Position numbers and translations under genes: made by a program
Notes under the pieces: generated by a model
The model's input: only the letters and a program-made list of their open reading frames with translations
Database searches by the model: none
Told to the model about the DNA's origin: nothing
Part shown: positions 691 through 42,364 of the stretch, in pieces
How the letters are laid out: every line of letters starts with the position of its first letter
Position numbering within the stretch: the stretch's first letter is position 1
Assembly: GCA_021300535.1 (NCBI GenBank)
Contig: JAJTED010000003.1
Coordinates: 1 to 64,000 of the forward strand
Direction of reading: 5' to 3'
Source of the DNA: Planctomycetaceae bacterium
GTDB lineage: Bacteria > Planctomycetota > Planctomycetia > Pirellulales > UBA1268
DNA: 64,000 nt

Positions 691-1165
691 GGGGCGGTGC
701 TCCTTGCGGGGAAAAGTGTCGAGCCCGGGAAGTATACTTCCGTATAGTCTGTCTACAAGCGATTATCGGCCGGGGATTAGAAACCTATTGAATCCCTCAG
801 CCAGCCGGAGGCGGCGGAAAAACGCGAACGCCGGAAAGCAGCTCCATCTGCATGCTATCGCAAGATGTTGGGTCGGACGTCCCGTTGACCACTTCCTATT
901 GGCCGGGGCGTGAATGTAGCGTGAGCGTCAAGGCCGTCAAGCGGCTTTTCCTCGGCCATGGAAACGGGGCGGAAATCCCGTGTTCGAGCGCCCCCGGAGC
1001 CGGCTCCGGGCCTGGTGGCCGCGTTAGTCCGGGAGGGGGGGGGGCGGCCGTGGCTCGCCTTTCGCGGGGATGACGGCGACAATTGCCGCCGACACGACTC
1101 GCTTGTCGGCCACGGACTCCGGCTGTGTTCTGGCCCATCCCCCGCCCCTCGAGGAGACCCTGACC

Positions 1166-1723
1166 ATGGCCCACGTTCCCGGTTTACAGCGCCCGCTCGA
1201 CGGCATTCGCGTCTTGATGCTGGTGGACGAAGACTACGAGGATCTCGAGCTCTGGTACCCGAAGCTACGGCTCGAAGAGGCCGGTTGTCACGTGACCGTG
1301 GCCGGTTTCATGCAAGGCCGCACCTACGCCGGCAAGCATGGCTATCCGTGCACGAGCGACGCGGCGCTGGGCGACATGGAGGTCGGCGACTTCCACGGGA
1401 TCGTGATTCCGGGCGGCTGGATGCCCGACAAGCTGCGGCGGCACGAGAAAGTGCTCGACCTGGTCCGGGAGTTCGCCGCCCACGGCAAGCTGGTGGCGGC
1501 GATCTGCCATGGCGGCTGGATTCCCATTTCGGCAGGGGTGTATCGCGGCGTGCGGGTGACCGGGAGCCCGGGGATCAAGGACGACCTGATGAACGCCGGC
1601 GCGATCTGGGAAGATACCCCGGTCGTCGTCGACCGACATTTCGTGTCGAGCCGCAAGCCGGCCGACCTGCCGGCGTTCATGGCGGTGATCGTGGACGTTT
1701 TGGCGGCGGCGGCGGTGGTGTAG
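1166..1723 (+). CDS. DJ-1/PfpI family protein
   Basis: MAHVPGLQRPLDGIRVLMLVDEDYEDLELWYPKLRLEEAG...AAICHGGWIPISAG (nucleophile-elbow AICHG). Confidence 0.88.
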   Translation: MAHVPGLQRPLDGIRVLMLVDEDYEDLELWYPKLRLEEAGCHVTVAGFMQGRTYAGKHGYPCTSDAALGDMEVGDFHGIVIPGGWMPDKLRRHEKVLDLVREFAAHGKLVAAICHGGWIPISAGVYRGVRVTGSPGIKDDLMNAGAIWEDTPVVVDRHFVSSRKPADLPAFMAVIVDVLAAAAVV

Positions 1724-1732
1724 ACTGCAGCG

Positions 1733-2215
1733 GTGAGTCGGAACGCCTCCCCAGATCTCGATGCGGTCAGGGCCCTCGTCCGCGACGCGGGCCTGCGGTG
1801 CACCCCCGCCCGTCTGGCGGTGCTCCAGCACCTGCTGCGGGCCCGTGGGCCCAAGACACACGCCGAGGTTGCCGTGGCGTTGGCCGACCGGGGGTTCGAT
1901 CGGGCGACGATCTACCGCAACCTGACGGAGCTCACGGAGGCCCGGCTCGTGAGTCGGATGGAGCTCGGGGACCACGTCTGGCGGTTCGAGATCCGGCGGC
2001 CGCAGGCCGGCCACGGCAAGAAGGACGAGCATCCGCACTTCGTCTGCACGACCTGTGGCGAGGTGTCGTGCCTCGAAGGCGTCGATGTGGCGATCACGCC
2101 GAAGCCGGGTCGGACCCGACGACCGGGCGGCTCGAAGTCGGCCCCGGCGGCCGCGGGCGGCATCGGCTCGGTGCGGGAAGTGCTGCTCAAGGGCCAGTGC
2201 TCGCAGTGTGAGTGA
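1733..2215 (+). CDS. Fur family transcriptional regulator
   Basis: LRDAGLRCTPARLAVLQHLL...HAEVAVALADRGFDRATIYRNLTELTEARLVSRMELGDHVWRFE...HPHFVCTTCGEVSCLEG; CxxC pairs. Confidence 0.88.
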   Translation: MSRNASPDLDAVRALVRDAGLRCTPARLAVLQHLLRARGPKTHAEVAVALADRGFDRATIYRNLTELTEARLVSRMELGDHVWRFEIRRPQAGHGKKDEHPHFVCTTCGEVSCLEGVDVAITPKPGRTRRPGGSKSAPAAAGGIGSVREVLLKGQCSQCE

Positions 2216-2967
2216 TCGCCGCCCGCCATGAGGCGGCCGGGGGCGGGCCTGGCCTGGCCGGGACGGCGGGCTCGCGGCGCATGGCGGCGGCACCGCACGG
2301 GGCGCGTGCCACGGCTGCGAAGCGGGGCAGCCTGGGCAAACCCAAACCTTTGGCGGCGGGCTGCGTATCGTTCTCTAGCCACGAAGGGCGTAAGCGTTTC
2401 AGTCACGGAGGACTCAATCATGGACCCCCACTTCAACGAGTATCTGGCGGCGATCGCAGGCATGCACGACCTCTACGGCGAGCGGCCCGAGGATCACCCG
2501 ACCGAGTTCCACGCGGATGACGCGGCCGTGATCGGGACCGGCGCTCCGGTGCCGGCTGCTGCCTGATCCAGGCCGTCGACTGTTTGCGGTGCGCGGGATT
2601 TGCCGGGAGAACGCCGACGTTGCCGGCAGCGCTACCGCAGGATCAACGTGCTGATCACCAAGGCGGCGATGCTGGCGCCGACCGGCGTGCCGGCTTGGCA
2701 ATCCTGCTTCGCAGGCGTAAGCGTGCAGGACACGCACGTTTCAGTGCAAGAAAGTGCAAGAACAAGGAAAGGAGCGGAGAAAAGCGGCAAGACGTGCGTC
2801 CAACACGCTGCATGCCGCCCGGCAGGCGGCGCCGCAGACCGGTCCGGGGCTGCGTGGAGATCGGGACCGCAAGCGAGACGTCGCTGTGACGACCAGCTGC
2901 CCACGACGCTTGACTCCCACGGGAGACGCGGGCGGATGAAAGCCCCGCGCTCACGAGGCGACCGTGG

Positions 2968-3822
2968 TCACGCCGCCGCGTGACGACCGCATCGGCGGAA
3001 CCGCCGCAGTTGCCAGACACTCCCCATCGCAGCCACTCCCGCCACGCAGGCCAAATGGTTGGGCTCAGAGGCGGCGACGATTTTGGGATGGAGGTCGCTA
3101 CCTGTCGAAGCGACTGCGTTCTCTCCGCCGGTGGAGGCCTTGAGTTCCGTGGCTTTCAAGATCAGAGTCCACGCGTAATCGACAAGGTTTCCCGTCGCAA
3201 GACCAACGTCTTGTGTCAGGATCGGTGCCGCTGGGTCGCCGGCAGGTGTCGAGACAGTGGCGCTGATCCATGATCCGCTCTGCCCGAGCACGGGCGACGT
3301 GAATGCGCGATCGGTGCCGATTTCGCCGTTGAGGAAAGCGAGTGCGAGGTCATATCTCTTCATGTTCAGAAACACGCTCTCACCCATCTCGGCATTGATG
3401 TTGACCGACTCGCCGGTCCTGGTCAGGCGAGAATCGCTATCCAGATCCCCGATCGCATGCCGGGAATCAGAGACGTTGGAGACCAAGCGACTGGTCACGT
3501 CGGGTGAATGGATCGCGATCGTTTCCGCCCCGGCCGGTTGGGCGAGCATGGCGAAGAGCGAGATCACGGCGACCCCGGCGGCGAGGGCAAAGGAATTGAG
3601 GACGCGCACGAATTGTTCCTTTTCAGGCGGGCAGGTGAAACAGGCGGGCAGGTGAAACCTGCCAACACGTTTAGCAAGCGGCGTGCCAATTGGCGTGCAT
3701 TCGCCGATTGCTGGGGCAAGTCGCCCAGAAAAAGCAGAGTTTTCCAGCATCAAGGGTAATTTGCCGATTTCTTTTCCCCCTTGGACGGTAGCGCGGCCCC
3801 ATCGCCGGGTGGGGTGAATCAC
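2968..3822 (-). CDS. Secreted hypothetical protein with PEP-CTERM-like C-terminus (true start probably an internal GTG near 3615)
   Basis: Signal peptide VRVLNSFALAAGVAVISLFAMLAQPAGAET; tail SEPNHLACVAGVAAMGSVWQLRRFRRCG. Confidence 0.5.
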   Translation of the reverse strand: MIHPTRRWGRATVQGGKEIGKLPLMLENSAFSGRLAPAIGECTPIGTPLAKRVGRFHLPACFTCPPEKEQFVRVLNSFALAAGVAVISLFAMLAQPAGAETIAIHSPDVTSRLVSNVSDSRHAIGDLDSDSRLTRTGESVNINAEMGESVFLNMKRYDLALAFLNGEIGTDRAFTSPVLGQSGSWISATVSTPAGDPAAPILTQDVGLATGNLVDYAWTLILKATELKASTGGENAVASTGSDLHPKIVAASEPNHLACVAGVAAMGSVWQLRRFRRCGRHAAA

Positions 3823-4270
3823 CCCAGTAACGGGCTTGATGCCCGGTGCGAATCACGCCAGTCACACGCGTGTTGCCGGCGTGGAATGCCGCAGCAGCAG
3901 CAGTGTTGCTACTGGTGAATCGGCGCATAGGTGAGCCCAGCACTTCATCGTCACAACCGCCGCGCGGCTGGGATCGACATGCCGATCGTTTGCGTATGTT
4001 GTCAGGGTTGATGCTGGATGCTGTCGCGACGGGACAGGCTGCCGCCGAGTCTCGTCTCCATCGCTGCCGCATGGTTCGGCGTCTTCTGCAATAGTGAGGC
4101 TGCAAGGCTCTTGAGGCCTGATTTTCGTGTTCCGAAAAAAGGAAAGGCAACGAGCGAGTTGCCTCTGCTTGTGGCGTCGTCAATCGAATAGGAATGCGAT
4201 CGTTTCGGAGTCGATTTATGCGACGCGAGTTCTCCGCCCACATTTGGTCTACACCCAAGGATTCACACCC

Positions 4271-5107
4271 ATGTCGCAGCGTGAACGTGCCCAGCTTGAA
4301 AGGATGCTGGAAAGCCGGCTGTTCGTCGTCCGGCCGCGGATGGCGGCGATGCTGCGGTTTTTCGTCGAGGAATCGCTCCGCAACGGTGGTGCCGCCATCA
4401 ACCAGCGGCTGATCGCCACCCATGCCCTCTCCCTGCCCAGCGATTTCCGCCCGACGAAGAGCGCCTACGTGCGCACCCATGTCACGCGGCTCCGTCAGGC
4501 GCTCGGTGACTACTACGCGACGGTCGGCCGTGACGACACGATCATCTTCAGCATCACGCCTGGCCCGTACCGGCTCGTCGTCACCGAGGCACTGCCGGCA
4601 GCTGGCGCGAGCCTCGAGGGGCCGCGCCACGCCGTCGCCCAGTCTTCTGTGAGGCTCGTCGATGCGCGGCTGGCAAAGGCTACCTTGGTCGTGATCGAAC
4701 TGGATGACGAACGCTGTCTGGGCCCGCAACGGGGTCTCGGCCGCGAGGTGGCATCGGGGCTCATGGTGCGGCTCGTTGAGAGCCCATTCGTACGGGCCTC
4801 CGGACCGCTTCTCCGCAGTCGCCTCGCCGAGGAACGGCTGACCGGCGAGGCCGCCGCCGGCCGCTGGGGTTACGATTACCTCTGCGATGCCACGCTGAGT
4901 CCTGCCAATGACGAGGGTGTCGTTTGCAAGGCTGCCGTCATTGGCGTGCCTGGCGGGCGACGGATACTCGACGAGAGCACGACGATCCACAGGCAGCAGG
5001 GCGAGCCGCTGGCCGAATCCCTTGGTAACTGGCTCTTTCACCGCATTAGCGAGGTCTTCATGCAACTGCGCATCGACTGCGGCTCCGCGGTGGTGCCGGT
5101 CGATTGA
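4271..5107 (+). CDS. Hypothetical protein with winged-helix-like N-terminal region
   Basis: MSQRERAQLERMLESRLFVVRPRMAAMLRFFVEESL...YVRTHVTRLRQALGDYYATVGRDDTIIFSITPGPYRLVV; long ORF with good start context. Confidence 0.6.
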   Translation: MSQRERAQLERMLESRLFVVRPRMAAMLRFFVEESLRNGGAAINQRLIATHALSLPSDFRPTKSAYVRTHVTRLRQALGDYYATVGRDDTIIFSITPGPYRLVVTEALPAAGASLEGPRHAVAQSSVRLVDARLAKATLVVIELDDERCLGPQRGLGREVASGLMVRLVESPFVRASGPLLRSRLAEERLTGEAAAGRWGYDYLCDATLSPANDEGVVCKAAVIGVPGGRRILDESTTIHRQQGEPLAESLGNWLFHRISEVFMQLRIDCGSAVVPVD

Positions 5108-5248
5108 GCCAGCAGGCAAGACTCCTGCTCCGTGGAATCTCCTTGACCGATGTCTGTCCGCAGGACAGGGGTGATGCGGCAGCCGCCGGGCCCCCTCGGC
5201 TCGAGCCGGGGCACCATCTGCGGCGGTCCAGCGGCCGGGCCGCGCGGG

Positions 5249-5704
5249 CTACCAGACCGCGACCTTGACCACGATCTTCACCACCGGTTCCGGCTCGGCC
5301 CAGGCGCAGCACGGGGCATGGGCGTCGTCAGGAAAGAGAATCATGAACTGGCCGGCCGCCACCGGCACCGGCACCACATCCTCGGCGGCTGCGAACAGCC
5401 CGGCGTCCTGCTTCTCGTCGTAGGGCCGCGCGATCGTGGACAGGCTTGCCAGCGGCGCCCACTGGATCACCTCGCGGCCGCCCGCGAGGTACTGGACGTC
5501 GACGTAGCGGCGGTGGGCTTCGAGCGGGCCCGCCGCGGGCCGCGTCTGGTACCGCTGCACGAGCGCGAAGATGGCGTCGCCGTCTATCTCGTGGCGGCCA
5601 TCGGCGATGTCGGGCGTGGCCTGCTCCAGAAAGGCGAAGGCCTTGGCCAACCGGGCGTTCAGCGGAGCGTATCGCCGCCACTGCGGCAGTGAGTCGAGGA
5701 TCAT
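5249..5704 (-). CDS. YhcH/YjgK/YiaL family protein
   Basis: MILDSLPQWRRYAPLNARLAKAFAFLEQA...LEAHRRYVDVQYLAGGREVIQWAP...FMILFPDDAHAPC...VVKIVVKV. Confidence 0.85.
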   Translation of the reverse strand: MILDSLPQWRRYAPLNARLAKAFAFLEQATPDIADGRHEIDGDAIFALVQRYQTRPAAGPLEAHRRYVDVQYLAGGREVIQWAPLASLSTIARPYDEKQDAGLFAAAEDVVPVPVAAGQFMILFPDDAHAPCCAWAEPEPVVKIVVKVAVW

Positions 5705-5865
5705 CGGCGCGTCGCCTCTCGGAAGTCTGCCGGTCGATGGGACGATCATAGGGCGGTCCCCGGCACCTGGCCAAGCGGCCCGGCACGTCTCGATGCAGGT
5801 GACGGAGGTTTTCTCGCAGCCCGGGGACTGGCCAACGAACCAGCGGTAATGACCGACGGGGCCGC

Positions 5866-6033
5866 TCACAGCGGTAAACGCCCGAGCAAGGCGAGGATCA
5901 GCAGAATGACCAGGATCAGCCCAAGCAGTCCGCCTCCCGCGCCGAGGACGGTGTTCCCGCTACGGAAACCGTAGCCACCGCCCAGCAGCGACAGGATCAA
6001 AATCACAACGAGGATCAGTACGAGTGGACTCAC
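5866..6033 (-). CDS. DUF3309-like small membrane protein
   Basis: GTG start: VSPLVLILVVILILSLLGGGYGFRSGNTVLGAGGGLLGLILVILLILALLGRLPL; not in ORF track (short). Confidence 0.72.
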   Translation of the reverse strand: MSPLVLILVVILILSLLGGGYGFRSGNTVLGAGGGLLGLILVILLILALLGRLPL

Positions 6034-6225
6034 GGCTTGCTCCTCACGCAGAAAAAGGACACCTGCATTCGTGGGGTCCCTCCCGTACGTTCGGAGTGCA
6101 TTCCATTCCCGACTGGCAGACCAACTGACTCTCGCCTGCGGTCACACATGCCCCGGGCGACGGGTTCCTTTCGCACGGGGCACGTGTCGTACGCCTCCGT
6201 CCCCCACGTCTGCGACGGTGATCCG

Positions 6226-6732
6226 CTACGGCAGGATCACCTTGTCGATGACATGAATGACACCATTGGTGGCATGGATGTCCGAGTTCTGGACATGGGC
6301 CATCTCCTTGGCGGTGCCGATGTGCACGCCCGTCAGCAGGTTGTGCGTCACGGCGACCCTTGTCCCGCCGACCGTCGGGAGGTCTTTGATCTTCTTCACA
6401 TCAGCGATCAGAAGATCGTCCGGCACCACGTGCATCAACAGAATCGCCTTCAACTTTTCCTTGTTTTCCGGCTTGAGCAGGTCGTCCAACGCCCCTGATG
6501 GGAGTTTCGCAAACGCCTGGTCGGATGGGGCAAATATCGTAAACGGCCCCTTTCCCTTCAGCGTTTCCACGAGCCCTGCCGCTTCAAGAGCCTTCACGAG
6601 CGTCTTGAAATGGCCGGCCTCGACTGCAGTCGCAACGACATCTTTGGTCGCTCCCTGGGCTCCAGCCGCCCGCTCGATGCCGGGCTCCGCGGCCACCGTC
6701 GCCAGGGCACACGTCAACAGAAAACGTTTCAT
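6226..6732 (-). CDS. Fasciclin domain-containing secreted protein
   Basis: DVVATAVEAGHFKTLVKALEAAGLVETLKGKGPFTIFAPSDQAFAKLP...LLTGVHIGTAKEMAHVQNSDIHATNGVIHVIDKVILP. Confidence 0.9.
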   Translation of the reverse strand: MKRFLLTCALATVAAEPGIERAAGAQGATKDVVATAVEAGHFKTLVKALEAAGLVETLKGKGPFTIFAPSDQAFAKLPSGALDDLLKPENKEKLKAILLMHVVPDDLLIADVKKIKDLPTVGGTRVAVTHNLLTGVHIGTAKEMAHVQNSDIHATNGVIHVIDKVILP

Positions 6733-6948
6733 GGGTCAGTTACCTCTCGAAGGAAAAACCGGTCGTCGGTTCAACGGATAAACCGAACCGGTCTGGACAA
6801 CACTAAGAACGCTGGCGAGAAGGTGGAGGAAAGGTCATGCACGCCCCGTTTTCTCCGCGTCTGACGCAGTGGACATTTTGCTCCGGCTGCCATTCCCGCA
6901 GTTCAACGGATGCGGCCGGGTTGCACGACGCCTGACGAGTGCTCCCGT

Positions 6949-20050: not shown

Positions 20051-20208
20051 ACTGCGATGCCTCCCGACGTGCCCACCACGGCAGGTGATGGCTCTTGGAG
20101 GCAGGCGTCGCAGAATCTGACGGAGCGGGAACTTCGCACGGAGCCGCAGGCGGTCGCACGCTGGTGGCGGTGGCATGAGTTCATCATCTGATCACCAAGG
20201 AAACTACC

Positions 20209-20484
20209 GTGATCGCGTTCCGAGTACTCGCTGAACTCACGGAACGGCTTTCGGTGGCCTAGGGGGACGGGCTGCACGCGGTGGTGCTCTTCGGTTCCAA
20301 TGCCCGTGGGAGTTCAAGGCCGGAAAGCGCCATCGACGTCCTGGCCGTTCTCGAGACCCTGGCCGGCGACTACGGCGACGAACTGGAGCGGGGGCTGACG
20401 GCGGTCTATCCGGTCGCCCTGCGGCTCGGTCGCCGCGTGAGCGTGAAACCCCTGGCACGCGACGAGGATGACAGGACGCTTTGA
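20209..20484 (+). pseudogene. MNT-type nucleotidyltransferase (antitoxin) remnant
   Basis: Homologous to 27230-27545 and 41528-41845, but with an in-frame TAG at 20260-20262 (TAC in paralogues), SDID changed to SAID, and loss of the C-terminus. Confidence 0.85.
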
Positions 20485-20654: not shown

Positions 20655-20699
20655 CTTCCAATCCGCAGGAGGACGCATGAGTTCGCACGGGTCGCCCTC

Positions 20700-21057
20700 A
20701 CAGTGCTCGTTGGCGAGCCGGAAGCAGAACTGCGTGAATCAGTCGGGTTCGATGGAAGAGAGCGGTCGCGAGCGGAGGACCTCATCGATGATCACCTCGA
20801 ACTCATCAAACAAAAATGGGCTGAGCACCTTGGCTGGCCGTGCCCCGAAGGCATGGCATGAGCAAGAAATGATCTTTGTCAGATTCGCGAGCGGCCATGA
20901 GGCGGGTTTTTCCACCAAGGGTAACCCGCGGCTGGAATCCGCTACCGAGGAAGATGTGGGCCGTATCGAAATCTCTCCGTTCGGGCTGCACTGGCCGACG
21001 CGCGATGAAGACCTTTCGTTTGCGGGAATCCTCGAGGAGCGTTACGGTCAACGGTGA
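20700..21057 (+). pseudogene. DUF4160/DUF2442 pair: DUF4160 N-terminally truncated, DUF2442 (20788-21057) largely intact
   Basis: VLVGEPEAELRESVGFDGRERSRAEDLIDDHLELIKQKWAEHLG overlapping ...MIFVRFASGHEAGFSTKGNPRLESATEEDVGRIEISPFGLHWPTRDEDLSFAGILEERYGQR; paralogue of 40651-41107. Confidence 0.78.
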
Positions 21058-21791: not shown

Positions 21792-23270
21792 GTGCACGGA
21801 CTGATCTTCTTCTACATGCAGAAGTTCGCCGACCTGCTCGCCACGGCGACGCACGCGGGCCGGCGATCATCGGTCTTCTGCGGCACGGCCCGCTACCTCC
21901 CCACGGGCGTCTATGACGACGCGGATGCGGTTGCCGTCCTCCAGGCGATCGCCGACGGCATCGACGAGCCGTTGCCCGGGCTGCTGCCCCGGTTCGGCGA
22001 GTTCCTCGCGCCGCATCTGATCAAGGTCGCCGGGCCGCTCGTGGATCCGACCTGGCGATCGCTCGACATCATCGAGCACACCGAGCCGCTCATCCACGCG
22101 ATGGTGCGGAAGAGCCAGCCCGGCGCCGAGCCCCCGGTCCTCGAGGCCTTGCGGGTCGGCGTCGATGAACTGCATCTGGTCTACAGTTCACGACGGCGGC
22201 TGTGCCGGCTGGCAGCCGGCGTGATCCGCGGAGTGGGCCGGCATTTTGGCGAGACACTGGAACTCGACGAGACCAGCTGCATGCTCCGCGGCGACCCGTT
22301 CTGCGCGTTCACCGTGCGGCGCACGGCCGCCGACACGCGGCCCGCCTTGGGGCACCTCGGCGAGACCGTCGTCGCGACCCCGGTGCCAGTCGGCTCGCCG
22401 CCGCCCGCCCCGCCTGACCTGCTCGTCGCCGACGCCATGCCGGATCGGATCGGCGACTACGAGATCCTCGGCCTCGCCGGCAGCGGCGCGATGGGCCGGG
22501 TCTACATGGCCCACGACGCCCGGCTCGACCGTCGGGTCGCGATCAAGGTCATGAATTCCGGCTCGGCCCGCGACCCCTTGGCTCGCCAGCGGTTCCTCCG
22601 CGAAAGCCGGGCCGCAGCTGCGGTCGAGCATCCTCATGTGATGACGATTTATCAGGTCGGCGAGGATCGCGGGCTGCCGTTCATCGTCATGCGATACCTC
22701 GAGGGCTGCACGCTGGCGGAATATTGCCGGGCCGGAAACCCGTGCCCGCTGCGGGAGGTGCTGCGGATCGGCCGGGAAGTTGCGGCGGGTCTGGCGGCGG
22801 CCCACCGCCGCAGCCTGGTACACCGCGACATCAAGCCCGCCAATATCTTTCTCGACGGCGACGACCGCAGTGTGCGAATCATTGACTTCGGGCTCGCACG
22901 GGAGTTCGGGCGCGGATCGGCACAGGTCACGGTGGACGGGGCCGTGATCGGCACGCCGGCCTACATGCCGCCGGAGCGGATTGCCGGCCAGGACGTGGAC
23001 GGGTCCAGCGACCTTTTCGGTCTCGGGGTCGTTCTCTACGAACTGCTCGCCGGCCGGCTGCCGTTCGAGGGCACCACTATGGTGTCGATGCTGGCGTCGA
23101 TCTCGCGGGGCCGACCCCTGCCGCTTCGGGAGGTCGCCCCGGACCTGCCCATACCGGTGGCCGATTTGGTGATGCGGCTCATCGCTCACGACAAGTCCGA
23201 TCGACCCTCCGCTGCGGAGACCATAGTCGACACGATCGCGACGCTGGAACGCGACCTGCCGGCAGGATAG
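21792..23270 (+). CDS. Ser/Thr protein kinase with N-terminal H-NOX (heme NO/O2-binding)-like domain
   Basis: N-term MHGLIFFYMQKFADLL...FGEFLAPHLIKVAGPL...IIEHTEPLIHAMVRKSQPGAEPPVLEAL...LHLVYSSRRRLCRLAAGVIRGVGRHFGE (YxSxR motif); kinase IGDYEILGLAGSGAMGRVYMAHDARLDRRVAIKVM...SLVHRDIKPANIFLDG...RIIDFGLAREFG. Confidence 0.85.
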   Translation: MHGLIFFYMQKFADLLATATHAGRRSSVFCGTARYLPTGVYDDADAVAVLQAIADGIDEPLPGLLPRFGEFLAPHLIKVAGPLVDPTWRSLDIIEHTEPLIHAMVRKSQPGAEPPVLEALRVGVDELHLVYSSRRRLCRLAAGVIRGVGRHFGETLELDETSCMLRGDPFCAFTVRRTAADTRPALGHLGETVVATPVPVGSPPPAPPDLLVADAMPDRIGDYEILGLAGSGAMGRVYMAHDARLDRRVAIKVMNSGSARDPLARQRFLRESRAAAAVEHPHVMTIYQVGEDRGLPFIVMRYLEGCTLAEYCRAGNPCPLREVLRIGREVAAGLAAAHRRSLVHRDIKPANIFLDGDDRSVRIIDFGLAREFGRGSAQVTVDGAVIGTPAYMPPERIAGQDVDGSSDLFGLGVVLYELLAGRLPFEGTTMVSMLASISRGRPLPLREVAPDLPIPVADLVMRLIAHDKSDRPSAAETIVDTIATLERDLPAG

Positions 23271-23529
23271 AGCAACCCCTCTTCTGTAGTTGCCGGGCTG
23301 AGCGGGTGGGTCATCTGGCTTCCATGGTCAGGTCGGCACGTTCGGTTTCCCCATCGTCACTGATTTCCGAGTGGACGGCCGATCTGCTCGTAGAACTCCT
23401 GCTCATCCGTCGCCTGCTCAGTGCGACGCTGTCGCCCATCGGCGAACAACTCGGCCGCCTGGGCCATGAGCTGCTTCTTTCAAGCCGTGACCCGGCTCGT
23501 TTGGATGCTAAACTGGCCCGCAGTTTATC

Positions 23530-23907
23530 CGCAGTCAATGGGCGAAGTCGAAGCGTTCGCTTGCTGCGGCTGAGGCGATCTTCGAGACCGACCCGGACTC
23601 AGCGGCATCGAGGGCGTACTATGCGGCCTTTCACGGTGTGACCGCGGTCCTCGCAGGACGCGGCATGGAATTCACGAAGCACACGGCGGTGCGGGCGGCC
23701 CTGCATCGGGATCTCATTCAGTCTGGGGCGCTCTCTGTGGACCTCGGTCGTGATTACGACTTCTTGTTGGATCTTCGCGAGACCGCCGACTACGGCGGCG
23801 TCGCCGAGGCCTCGCTGGCGAGTGCGAGGCAGGCGATCGAGAAGGCGAGGGCGATCTTGGCCGCGCTCAAGACGCTTTTGCCGAATGACGCTCCCGGTAA
23901 TGCTTGA
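23530..23907 (+). pseudogene. HEPN-domain protein remnant lacking a start codon
   Basis: FIRSQWAKSKRSLAAAEAIFETDPDSAASRAYYAAFHGVTAVLAGRGMEFTKHTAVRAALHRDLIQSGALSVDLGRDYDFLLDLRETADYGGVAEASLASARQAIEKARAILAAL; TAA just upstream in frame. Confidence 0.82.
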
Positions 23908-27133: not shown

Positions 27134-27200
27134 TCGGTAGAGTCGGGAAGTCCGCAGGGAGCTGCAGGAGGCCGCATGCTGGTGACGGTAGAATGTAGAG

Positions 27201-27545
27201 ATGAAATTGCTGGCTGAGGAAACTGCCATGATCGCGTCCCGTGTAATCGATGAACTCAAGGAACGACTGTCGGCGGTCTACGGCGACCGCCTGTACGCGG
27301 TTGTCCTGTTCGGCTCCGAAGCTCGGGGAAATGCCGGGCCAGACAGCGACATCGACGTCTTGGCAGTTCTCGAGACTCTGGCCGGCGACTACGGTGAGGA
27401 ATTGGAGCGGGGACTTGCGGCGGTGTATCCGATCGCCCTGCGGCTTGGCCGCCGCGTGAGCGTGAAACCGCTGGCACGAGAGGAGTATGATCGCGGCGAT
27501 AGCCCATTGCTCCGCGAGGTGCGTCGCTCAGGCGTGGCGGCATGA
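27201..27545 (+). CDS. MNT-domain nucleotidyltransferase (antitoxin of HEPN/MNT pair)
   Basis: VVLFGSEARGNAGPDSDIDVLAVLE motif; stop overlaps start of HEPN gene (ATGA). Confidence 0.9.
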   Translation: MKLLAEETAMIASRVIDELKERLSAVYGDRLYAVVLFGSEARGNAGPDSDIDVLAVLETLAGDYGEELERGLAAVYPIALRLGRRVSVKPLAREEYDRGDSPLLREVRRSGVAA

Positions 27546-27925
27546 ACGAGTTCATCCGCAGTCAATGGGCAAAGTCCAAGCGTTCGCTTGCTGCGGCTGA
27601 GGTGATCTTCGAGACCGATCCGGACTCAGCAGCATCGAGGGCTTACTACGCTGCGTTTCATGGTGTGACCGCGGTCCTCGCAGGACGCGGCATGGAATTC
27701 ACGAAGCACACGGCGGTGCGGGCGGCCCTGCATCGGGATCTCATCCAGTCTGGCGCGATCTCTGCGGATCTCGGTCGTGATTACGACTTCTTGCTCGATC
27801 TCCGCGAGACCGCCGATTATGGCGGAGTTGCCGAGGCATCCCTGGCGAGTGCGACAAAGGCGATCGAAAAGGCAAGGAAGATCCTGGCCTCGATCGAGCC
27901 ACTTTTGCCCGATAGCGCCGCCTGA
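27542..27925 (+). CDS. HEPN-domain protein (toxin of HEPN/MNT pair)
   Basis: MNEFIRSQWAKSKRSLAAAEVIFETDPDSAASRAYYAAFHGVTAVLAGRG...; paired with MNT. Confidence 0.9.
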   Translation: MNEFIRSQWAKSKRSLAAAEVIFETDPDSAASRAYYAAFHGVTAVLAGRGMEFTKHTAVRAALHRDLIQSGAISADLGRDYDFLLDLRETADYGGVAEASLASATKAIEKARKILASIEPLLPDSAA

Positions 27926-31925: not shown

Positions 31926-33044
31926 GTGCGTTTCAACCGGCGATTTCCTCTACTCTCAGGCCAGACGTTCTGGATCGCCCACGCCTGTTTTTGGCTGACC
32001 GCGTTCGCTGGCGCGATGATCGTGATCCGGGCGTTCAAGCCGGCCCTGCCGGACGCAGCGTGGTTCGTCGGCATGCGGGTGGTGGCGGCCTGCCTGATCA
32101 CGGCAGCCGTGCGGATGGCCGCCAAGAGCTCGCCGCTGCTCGAGCGGTTGGGGATTTCCAAGATCGGGCTGACGGTGGGGGGGCCGCTGGCCGGCGCGGT
32201 CGTGATGACCCTCGCGTTCATGGTCTACGGCACGCTCTCGGGAGGCTCTCCGCTGACGATCGACATCTCCGCCGGCGCTCCCAACCGGCTCGGCCTCGCC
32301 GCCCGGTTTCTCCTCGATGTGATCCTGCTCGGCACATGGTCGGCGGCCTACTTCGGCTCCCACCTGCTCCGCGACCAGCGGGCAGCGGAACTGCGCGCCT
32401 TCGAGGCCGAAGCCCTCGCCGCCCGCAACGAGCTCAACCACCTGCAGGCCCAGATCAGCCCGCACTTTCTCTTCAATTCGCTGAACACGATCCTCGCCTG
32501 CAAGCAATCGCCCGACGACATCGAGGTGATCACGCAGTCGCTGGCGAAGTACCTGCGGTTCATCCTCCGCCCCGTCGCCACGCTCGAGCCGCTAGGCCGG
32601 GAGATGGACGCCCTCGAGGATTACCTCACGATCCAATCGTTCCGGTTCGGCGACCAACTCTCCTGCCGGATCGACTGCGACACCGACATCCGCCGCATTC
32701 CGGTGCTGCCCGCCATGATCCAGCCGCTCGTGGAAAACGCGCTCAAGTACGGACGCCACGCCGACGATCAGCCGCTGGAGGTGACAGTGCGTGCCCGCCG
32801 CGATCACGACAAGCTCTTCATCGAGGTCGCCAACACGGGCCACTGGGTGCCCGCAGACCAGGCCCAGTCGACCAACACGGGCCTCCACACGCTCCGCCGC
32901 AGGCTGCTCATCCATGGCGGCCCTGAAGCCACCGTCACCATGTCGGAACACGACGGCTGGGTGCAGGTCGTCATCCAGATTCCCCTTACGGCGGAGTATG
33001 CTCTCCCCTCCGTCGCGCCGGAGCCCACGGAGATTGCCGGATGA
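31926..33044 (+). CDS. LytS-like sensor histidine kinase (His_kinase family)
   Basis: ELNHLQAQISPHFLFNSLNTILACKQSPDDIEVITQSLAKYLRFIL...LPAMIQPLVENALKYG; TM N-terminus. Confidence 0.92.
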   Translation: MRFNRRFPLLSGQTFWIAHACFWLTAFAGAMIVIRAFKPALPDAAWFVGMRVVAACLITAAVRMAAKSSPLLERLGISKIGLTVGGPLAGAVVMTLAFMVYGTLSGGSPLTIDISAGAPNRLGLAARFLLDVILLGTWSAAYFGSHLLRDQRAAELRAFEAEALAARNELNHLQAQISPHFLFNSLNTILACKQSPDDIEVITQSLAKYLRFILRPVATLEPLGREMDALEDYLTIQSFRFGDQLSCRIDCDTDIRRIPVLPAMIQPLVENALKYGRHADDQPLEVTVRARRDHDKLFIEVANTGHWVPADQAQSTNTGLHTLRRRLLIHGGPEATVTMSEHDGWVQVVIQIPLTAEYALPSVAPEPTEIAG

Positions 33045-36540: not shown

Positions 36541-36645
36541 GAACGACTGGGCAGAGCTCGTGCAGGTCACCTTCAAAAACGACGAGAGGCAGAAGGTTTT
36601 GCAACCCCCTGCCTCCTGGTGCCACTCTAGACATGAGTGGCGTAG

Positions 36646-36730
36646 CTCCCCGAGTAGGATCACGCACGACTGCGTTTTCCTGCTGGAAACCGGGGAATGG
36701 CGTAGGAAGGCGACGCGGAATCCGACGCAG
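36646..36730 (+). repeat. tRNA-Asn-tag element, type II (tag 36646-36663, direct repeat 36710-36730)
   Basis: ctccccgagtaggat...; gcgacgcggaatccgacgcag 64 bp downstream. Confidence 0.92.
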
Positions 36731-36813
36731 TGGGGACTTCGCAGGGAGCCGCATGGGGCCGCAGGCTTGTGGCGGTAGAATGAAACTCACAACTGCTGTC
36801 CAAGGAAAATCCC

Positions 36814-37012
36814 GTGATCGCGTCCCGTGTGCTCGACGAACTCAAGGAACGGCTGTCGGCAGCCTACGGCGAACGCCTGCACGCGGTTGTCCTCTTCGGC
36901 TCCGAAGCCCGCGGGGATGCAAGACCGGATAGCGACATCGACGTCCTCGTCGTTCTCGAGACTCTGACCGGTGACTACGGCGAAGAACTAGAGCGGGGAC
37001 TTGCGGCGCGAG
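36814..37012 (+). pseudogene. MNT nucleotidyltransferase truncated after ~65 codons
   Basis: MIASRVLDELKERLSAAYGERLHAVVLFGSEARGDARPDSDIDVLVVLETLTGDYGEELERGLAA, then homology stops; no HEPN partner follows. Confidence 0.85.
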
Positions 37013-40650: not shown

Positions 40651-40887
40651 ATGATGCCGAAGATTTTCGAACAAGATGGCTATTCGTTTTTCTTCTACAG
40701 CAATGACCATGCCCCCATCCACGTCCATGTTCGCAGGGGCGGGGGCGAAGCGGTGTTCGTTGTCGAACCGGAAGTAGAACTGCGTGAATCAGTCGGGTTC
40801 AATGTAAGAGAACTTTCGCGAGCGGAGGACCTCATCGATGACCACCTCGAACTCATCAAACAAAAATGGGCCGAGCACCTTGGCTGA
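40651..40887 (+). CDS. DUF4160 domain-containing protein
   Basis: MPKIFEQDGYSFFFYSNDHAPIHVHVRRGGGEAVFVVEPEVELRESVGFNVRELSRAEDLIDDHLELIKQKWAEHLG. Confidence 0.9.
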   Translation: MMPKIFEQDGYSFFFYSNDHAPIHVHVRRGGGEAVFVVEPEVELRESVGFNVRELSRAEDLIDDHLELIKQKWAEHLG

Positions 40888-41107
40888 CCGTGCCCTGAAG
40901 GCATGGCATGAGCGAGGAATGATCTTTATCAGGTTCGCCAGCGGCCATGAGGTGAGTTTTCCCACCAAGGGCAACCCGCGGCTGGAATCCGCTGCCGAGG
41001 AAGATGTGGGCCGTATCGAAATCTCTCCATTTGGGCTGCACTGGCCGACGCTCGACGAAGACCTGTCGTTCACGGGAATCTTGGAGGGGCGTTGCGGTCA
41101 ACGGTGA
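40838..41107 (+). CDS. DUF2442 domain-containing protein
   Basis: MIFIRFASGHEVSFPTKGNPRLESAAEEDVGRIEISPFGLHWPTLDEDLSFTGILEGRCGQR; overlaps DUF4160 gene. Confidence 0.88.
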   Translation: MTTSNSSNKNGPSTLADRALKAWHERGMIFIRFASGHEVSFPTKGNPRLESAAEEDVGRIEISPFGLHWPTLDEDLSFTGILEGRCGQR

Positions 41108-41358
41108 CCGTGCGGTTCATGTGAGGCAGCAGACTTTGGGTCCGCGCAGCCAGCCATAAGTGTTACGCGGTTCCGTAGAAACACGAGTGAGCGAGAGACA
41201 CACTGCACGAAATGCTCTCGTGGCTTGCGGATCGCGGGCTTGATGGGCCTCCGCATCAACAAAATGGCTTCCCCATCAAAAGACCAAGCCGCAGAACGAC
41301 TTGCGTCACTCTGCGGCTCCGTGCGATCTCGTGCGGCCACTTTCAAAAAGAGCCAAAA

Positions 41359-41444
41359 CTCCCCGAGTAGGATTGCGCACAATCGCGTTTTCCCGCCAGA
41401 AAAACAGGGCTTGCCGAGTCAAAGCGACGCAGAATCCGACGCAG
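41359..41444 (+). repeat. tRNA-Asn-tag element, type II (tag 41359-41376, direct repeat 41424-41444)
   Basis: ctccccgagtaggattgc; gcgacgcagaatccgacgcag 65 bp downstream. Confidence 0.92.
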
Positions 41445-41527
41445 CGTGAACTTCGCACGGAGCCGCAGGAGGTCACACGCGGGTGGCGGTAGAATGAGTT
41501 CATCATCTGATCGTCAGGGAAACTGCC

Positions 41528-41845
41528 GTGAGAGCGTCCCGGATACTCGCTGAACTCAAGGAACGGCTTTCGGAGGCCTACGGCGAACGGCTGCACGCGG
41601 TTGTCCTCTTCGGTTCTGAAGCCCGAGGAGATGCCAGGCCGGATAGCGACATCGACGTCGTGGCCGTTCTCGATAAATTGGCCGGCGACTACGGCGATGA
41701 ACTGGAGAGAGGACTAGCAGCGGTGTATCCGGTTGCCCTACGAATCGGTCGTCGCGTCAGCGTGAAACCCCTGGCACGCGATGAGTATGAACAGGGCGAC
41801 AGCCCGCTGCTTCGCGAGGTGCGTCGCTCGGGTGTTGCGGCATGA
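41528..41845 (+). CDS. MNT-domain nucleotidyltransferase (antitoxin of HEPN/MNT pair)
   Basis: VVLFGSEARGDARPDSDIDVVAVLDK; overlaps HEPN start. Confidence 0.9.
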   Translation: MRASRILAELKERLSEAYGERLHAVVLFGSEARGDARPDSDIDVVAVLDKLAGDYGDELERGLAAVYPVALRIGRRVSVKPLARDEYEQGDSPLLREVRRSGVAA

Positions 41846-42225
41846 AGGAGTTCATCCGCAGTCAATGGATGAAGGCGATGCGTTCGCTTGCTGCCGCCGA
41901 GGCAACTCTCGACACCGACCCAGACTCAGCGGCATCACGAGCGTACTATGCCGCGTTTCACGGGGTAACCGCAACGCTCGCGGGGCGAGGCATGGAATTC
42001 ACGAAGCACACGGCGGTGCGGGCGGCCCTCCATCGGGATCTCATTCAGTCCGGTGCGCTCTCTGCGCATCTCGGTCGTGATTACGACTTCCTGCTCGATC
42101 TTCGCGAGACCGCCGACTACGGCGGCGTCGCCGAGGCGTCCCTCGCGAGTGCGACGAAGGCGATCGAGAAGGCGCGGGCGATCCTGGCCGCGCTCCAGCC
42201 TCTGTTGCCGGATGGCGCTGTCTGA
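41842..42225 (+). CDS. HEPN-domain protein (toxin of HEPN/MNT pair)
   Basis: MKEFIRSQWMKAMRSLAAAEATLDTDPDSAASRAYYAAFHGVTATLAGRGMEFTKHTAVRAALHRDL... Confidence 0.9.
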   Translation: MKEFIRSQWMKAMRSLAAAEATLDTDPDSAASRAYYAAFHGVTATLAGRGMEFTKHTAVRAALHRDLIQSGALSAHLGRDYDFLLDLRETADYGGVAEASLASATKAIEKARAILAALQPLLPDGAV

Positions 42226-42280
42226 AAGATGCCGCCTGGTGCGGCCCTAGGCGAGCGGGTGCGGCACGCTGCGAAGAAAG

Positions 42281-42364
42281 CTCCCCGAGTAGGAACAGTG
42301 CGAATCGTTGTTTTCGCGGAGAATACGGCAAAGCCGGCTTGGACGTGACGTAAAAAGCGACGTA
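42281..42364 (+). repeat. tRNA-Asn-tag element, type III (tag core 42281-42294, direct repeat 42345-42364)
   Basis: ctccccgagtagga exact; gtgacgtaaaaagcgacgta 64 bp downstream. Confidence 0.9.

Follow-up and report, generated by a model that had tools for sequence, protein, structure and literature searches.

A conserved planctomycete fusion of an H-NOX domain to a Hanks-type Ser/Thr kinase, a probable soluble heme-based gas sensor

Introduction

NO-type H-NOX domains lack a distal tyrosine and have histidine kinases or c-di-GMP enzymes as their targets, and O2-type H-NOX domains possess this tyrosine and are fused to chemoreceptors (PMC12329717, PMC8738867). Several described systems resemble the protein studied here, in which an H-NOX domain precedes a Ser/Thr kinase. 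In the HnoX/HnoK systems of Shewanella and Vibrio, an H-NOX NO sensor exhibiting the same heme residues and zinc-cysteine positions controls a kinase, but that kinase is a histidine kinase on its own chain, which signals to response regulators, whereas here a Ser/Thr kinase is covalently attached. In the beta subunit of soluble guanylate cyclase, too, an N-terminal H-NOX opens a soluble enzyme of several domains; its output is cGMP, with PAS and coiled-coil regions in between, whereas here a kinase follows a disordered linker. The H-NOX–MCP chemoreceptors also combine H-NOX and output domain in a single chain, yet they are membrane-bound O2 sensors with the distal tyrosine and have no kinase domain. 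On the kinase side, the PknB-type bacterial Ser/Thr kinases share the catalytic domain family, but are anchored in the membrane and use extracellular PASTA sensors instead of a heme-type sensor on a soluble protein. Compared by description, HRI, the mammalian heme-regulated eIF2alpha kinase, is also a Ser/Thr kinase whose N-terminal region responds to heme, although it is eukaryotic and its heme domain is unrelated.

To our knowledge, the inputs of bacterial Hanks-type kinases are mostly unknown, and the fusion would give this class an intracellular signal. With a conserved fusion of this kind, a gas would act on Ser/Thr phosphorylation without intermediates, and the one-chain design would open the coupling between H-NOX and effector to study without a separate partner. 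We found no description of an H-NOX–Ser/Thr kinase fusion in the titles and abstracts searched, which include a minority of subscription papers. The initial annotation had called the fusion an unusual gas-sensing route, which agrees with this search; it is nevertheless a conserved family and no isolated oddity. A known sensor thus sits on a known effector, in a conserved combination that is undescribed as far as we found, and the architecture itself would show in domain databases.

One gene encodes sensor and kinase

The window analysed is a stretch of 64,000 nucleotides from a Planctomycetaceae bacterium (assembly GCA_021300535.1, contig JAJTED010000003.1). On its plus strand, as are all features of the gene given below, an uninterrupted frame of 492 codons runs from a GTG start at 21792 to a stop at 23270 (21792-23270), and the V/M-H-G start is common to family members. 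The 492-residue protein comprises an H-NOX (HNOB) sensor domain (residues 1-176, 21792-22319), a proline-rich linker (22320-22448) and a Hanks-type Ser/Thr kinase domain (residues 223-477, 22458-23222), which is followed by a tail of about 15 residues. The linker counts about 43 residues here and 39-86 across the family, and residues 180-214 are modelled with very low pLDDT. No membrane-type hydrophobic segment was found in any family member, the highest 19-residue Kyte-Doolittle mean being 1.66, and this, with the short tail, makes the family proteins look soluble.

Compared with its orthologs, the window gene exhibits 0.45-0.55 substitutions at third codon positions and 0.19-0.25 at second positions, so that third positions differ 2-2.7 times as often. 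It is therefore a coding sequence under protein-level constraint. Two Pirellulales metagenome genomes carry full-length orthologs that are 59% (L002) and 54% (L003) identical. A two-gene chimera or a frameshift artefact is ruled out by 60 loci with the identical fusion, and because these loci of the same taxonomic order share the domain order, a chance pairing of domains is excluded as well.

The N-terminal domain is an H-NOX

The Pfam profile HNOB (PF07700) matches residues 33-158 with 57.3 bits (E 2.3e-15), well above its cut-off of 25.5. In a phmmer search of PDB sequences, the closest solved sequence is the H-NOX of S. oneidensis (So H-NOX, 2kii/4u99, E 1.5e-10), and residues 35-175 align without gaps to its residues 36-176. 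Pfam also reports a V4R match of 32 bits over residues 132-176, overlapping the C-terminus of the H-NOX. V4R domains lack the heme motif set, and a V4R-only identity was rejected, as this match covers only 45 residues and overlaps the 57-bit HNOB match.

The AlphaFold2 model of the H-NOX part, built from an alignment of only 3 ortholog sequences, has a pLDDT of 68 and a pTM of 0.67, with residues 20-44 diverged and poorly modelled. With this moderate-confidence model as query, a Foldseek search against the PDB gave only structures of H-NOX or of soluble guanylate cyclase at ranks 1-45 (E 6e-9, TM about 0.65); TRAPP/BET3 proteins appear beyond rank 45 (E about 1e-4), with a guanylate cyclase alpha chain at rank 50. 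The full-length model, from the same 3 sequences, reaches a pLDDT of 55, so the domain interface was not read from it and the fold search used the H-NOX part alone.

The residues that hold the heme in characterised H-NOX proteins are present in the expected register, and we counted them in 61 full-length fused proteins, including three from genome G440. The predicted proximal ligand is His102 (22095-22097), which the phmmer alignment places opposite His103 of So H-NOX and which occurs in 61/61 proteins. The porphyrin-propionate motif YxSxR takes the form YSSRR, with Y131, S133 and R135 (22182-22196) each conserved in all 61. At the position of the heme-distorting proline, Pro115 in the window (22134-22136), 51 of the 61 proteins exhibit P and 10 exhibit A, while the hinge-type glycines G69 and G143 are invariant. 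The initial annotation had proposed an N-terminal H-NOX with a proximal histidine and YSSRR as the porphyrin contact, and had named a non-H-NOX fold or a missing heme histidine as what would overturn the assignment. The profile match, the top PDB sequence and the fold all bear the proposal out, and every diagnostic heme residue agrees with H-NOX.

Three invariant cysteines mark the fused group

So H-NOX binds zinc through Cys139, Cys164 and Cys172, with His161 as fourth ligand (PMC7108781). The equivalents of the three cysteines in the window protein are Cys138 (22203-22205), Cys163, which closes the segment from Glu160 (22269-22280), and Cys171 (22302-22304). Each is found in 61/61 fused proteins, versus 1/27 free-standing H-NOX domains of the same order. 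The cysteines of the So/Vc zinc subset are thus all there, but the fourth ligand of that subset, His or Gln, is replaced in the window by Glu160, which takes the place of His161; among 60 fused proteins this residue is E in 48, Q in 7, K in 4 and H in 1. Together, the three cysteines probably make up a zinc/thiol site, which would stabilise the domain.

In V. cholerae H-NOX, oxidation of the zinc-cysteine site activates the protein without heme (PMC7108781). This precedent, together with cysteines that are as invariant as the heme residues and that set the fused group off from its free-standing relatives, raises the alternative of a protein that is mainly a redox sensor, in which zinc bound to Cys138, Cys163 and Cys171 and disulfide oxidation would switch the kinase, the heme being secondary or absent. 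We consider this unlikely, since the conservation of H102, Y131, S133 and R135 in all 61 proteins would be needless in a heme-free sensor, and the fourth position holds Glu where known zinc sites have His or Gln.

The distal pocket points to NO

The position that holds Tyr140 in O2-binding H-NOX proteins is Leu140 in the window (22209-22211). It is L in 58, M in 1, V in 1 and G in 1 of the 61 fused proteins and never Tyr; nor is Tyr among the residues listed for the fused proteins at positions 9, 74, 140 and 144. As the distal-pocket tyrosine of the O2 sensors is missing, NO is the expected ligand, and by these residues the domain would belong to the NO-type (non-O2) H-NOX class, which is defined by the lack of a hydrogen-bonding distal Tyr. 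CO binds most ferrous H-NOX proteins, and Ile5, a pocket residue of the O2-binding T. tengcongensis protein, is retained in 58/60 fused proteins, both of which could suggest that O2 or CO is sensed instead of NO. The absence of the O2-stabilising Tyr140 from all 61 proteins argues against this reading and leaves it distinctly improbable. In the genome, which is 86% complete, a copper nitrite reductase (TIGR02376) was not found, and one COX1-family oxidase is present.

The kinase domain is complete

The Pfam profile Pkinase matches residues 223-477 with 164.2 bits (E 5e-48), and the motifs GxGxxGxV, VAIK, HRDIKPAN, DFG and PPE are all present. The catalytic loop HRDIKPANI (22821-22847) contains the catalytic Asp346, conserved in 60/60 proteins where the sequence is not N. 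Across the 61 proteins, the G-loop, K252, E271, HRD (HRDxKxxN), K348, N351, DFG, PPE, D407 and R471 never vary, the only exceptions being Ns in assemblies and a single gap at R471. A candidate phosphosite of the activation loop is Thr380 (22929-22931), being T in 50/61 proteins and acidic in 9/61. The best NCBIfam match is the PknB-type model NF033483, below its cut-off. With its full set of catalytic motifs, the domain is the complete Hanks-type kinase that the initial annotation had placed after the H-NOX, and the two are joined in one protein. No histidine-kinase domain was found on this protein with Pfam, and in the part of the neighbourhood that was scanned the nearest His_kinase ORF found is at 31926-33044, 8.7 kb away.

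Proposed mechanism

The protein is probably a soluble, one-protein Ser/Thr kinase that senses gas through heme. NO, or possibly CO, would bind a ferrous heme that has His102 of the H-NOX domain as its ligand. The bond between His102 and iron would then break, and the two halves of the domain, distal and proximal, would shift as in characterised H-NOX proteins. This movement could pass through the flexible linker to the covalently attached kinase and switch its activity towards its putative substrates, most likely by releasing or imposing inhibition, and perhaps through dimerisation and autophosphorylation of Thr380. Through the cysteine site, oxidation may act as a further (redox) input, for which V. 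cholerae H-NOX is a precedent (PMC7108781). More tentatively, we suggest a dual-input family of planctomycetes in which a single H-NOX reads both heme-NO and zinc-thiol oxidation and directly controls the attached Hanks-type kinase. If true, this would constitute a pathway from gas to phosphoserine/threonine that uses neither a second messenger nor a histidine kinase.

Distribution and phylogeny of the fusion

PF07700 is matched in 92 of 397 sampled genomes of the window's order. We scored long frames against the H-NOX profile and for a kinase, and found H-NOX followed by kinase in one frame at 60 loci in 59 of the 397 genomes, a few of these loci being truncated at contig ends. The window's own family (f1) accounts for 41 loci, family f15 for 15 and family f3 for 4 loci in 3 genomes. 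In the rest of the phylum, three fused copies occur in genome G440 and one divergent copy in genome G503. A further locus (L214, genome G122) exhibits one internal stop and looks like a broken fusion.

In a tree of 124 H-NOX domains, a single group (SH-aLRT 99) of 66 rows contains all 64 fused domains, and its two non-fused rows are L214 and the free-standing L201. In the kinase tree, a clade with 99/99 support unites the f1 and f15 domains and excludes 17 other kinases of this genome as well as acidobacterial kinases. The kinase domains of f3, G440 and G503 fall outside this clade, with weak to moderate support. The simplest reading of both trees is that one old H-NOX lineage became associated with kinases, and that in some lines the kinase was replaced or the fusion arose separately.

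Two other phyla were sampled with 399 and 297 genomes, and the few long H-NOX frames examined there carry no kinase. Several of them bear a PilZ-like domain as judged by eye; in the sample centred on an Azospira genome, six loci (L248, L249, L250, L253, L254 and L257) encode an H-NOX with a C-terminal PilZ-like region, also recognised by eye, in frames of about 420-570 residues, and most have the same MHG start. Genome G306, which has an H-NOX–kinase (L137), also encodes a chemoreceptor-like protein with a C-terminal H-NOX (L153, reverse complement, 1127-3242). At locus L206 of genome G472 (reverse complement, 4110-6733), an ORF that matches the kinase (140 bits) comes directly after an H-NOX-like ORF, the two frames overlapping; the H-NOX match is weak (62 bits), and the locus is a possible two-gene counterpart of the fusion.

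A displaced copy in a repeat-rich island

At about 30-35 of the 41 f1 loci, a gene for an SQHop/DUF4159 protein and a gene for a protein with a lipobox-like start are found upstream of the H-NOX–kinase gene, and on its other side are hisS, on the opposite strand, a YkgJ-like gene and recJ. Among these, recJ and DUF4159 were assigned by Pfam, and hisS, the YkgJ-like gene and the lipobox by eye. None of these neighbours adjoins the window copy. The same genome keeps the usual locus on another contig (C121, locus L218), without the H-NOX–kinase. There, the frame of the upstream gene (4975-6060) extends to 6060 and overlaps the hisS stop at 6038, and the C-terminal tail seen in relatives is replaced; the overlap is apparently a scar that the departed H-NOX–kinase gene left behind. 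Copies from the same genus, most of which are at the usual place, are those with which the window copy groups, and this makes a move within the lineage more probable than acquisition from a distant source. Five more f1 copies are out of place (L112, L115, L120, L121 and L149). A search of plasmid records gave no match spanning at least 80% of the query, and the neighbouring genes offered no hint of a substrate.

The gene had also been described as lying inside an island, and in this genome it is indeed missing from the locus that it occupies in relatives and sits amid repeated small modules. That it is a displaced, decaying gene without function in this genome is highly improbable: its position in a repeat-rich island, away from the conserved locus, and an HNOB match more diverged than any other in its genus (60 bits vs 72-79) would fit such decay, but its frame is open, its heme, cysteine and kinase residues are all intact, its substitutions cluster at third codon positions, and it encodes the only H-NOX of the assembly.

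The island contains repeat copies that are 75-90% identical, at 20126-20471, 23522-23882, 27144-27490, 27549-27909, 36589-37008, 40753-41108 and 41251-42294. A repeated ORF of the island (23512-23907 and 27503-27925) appears HEPN-like by eye, and a small ORF at 27201-27545 may be its nucleotidyltransferase partner. An ORF that matches DUF2442 (Pfam, 43 bits) lies at 20677-21057, a short distance upstream of the H-NOX–kinase gene.
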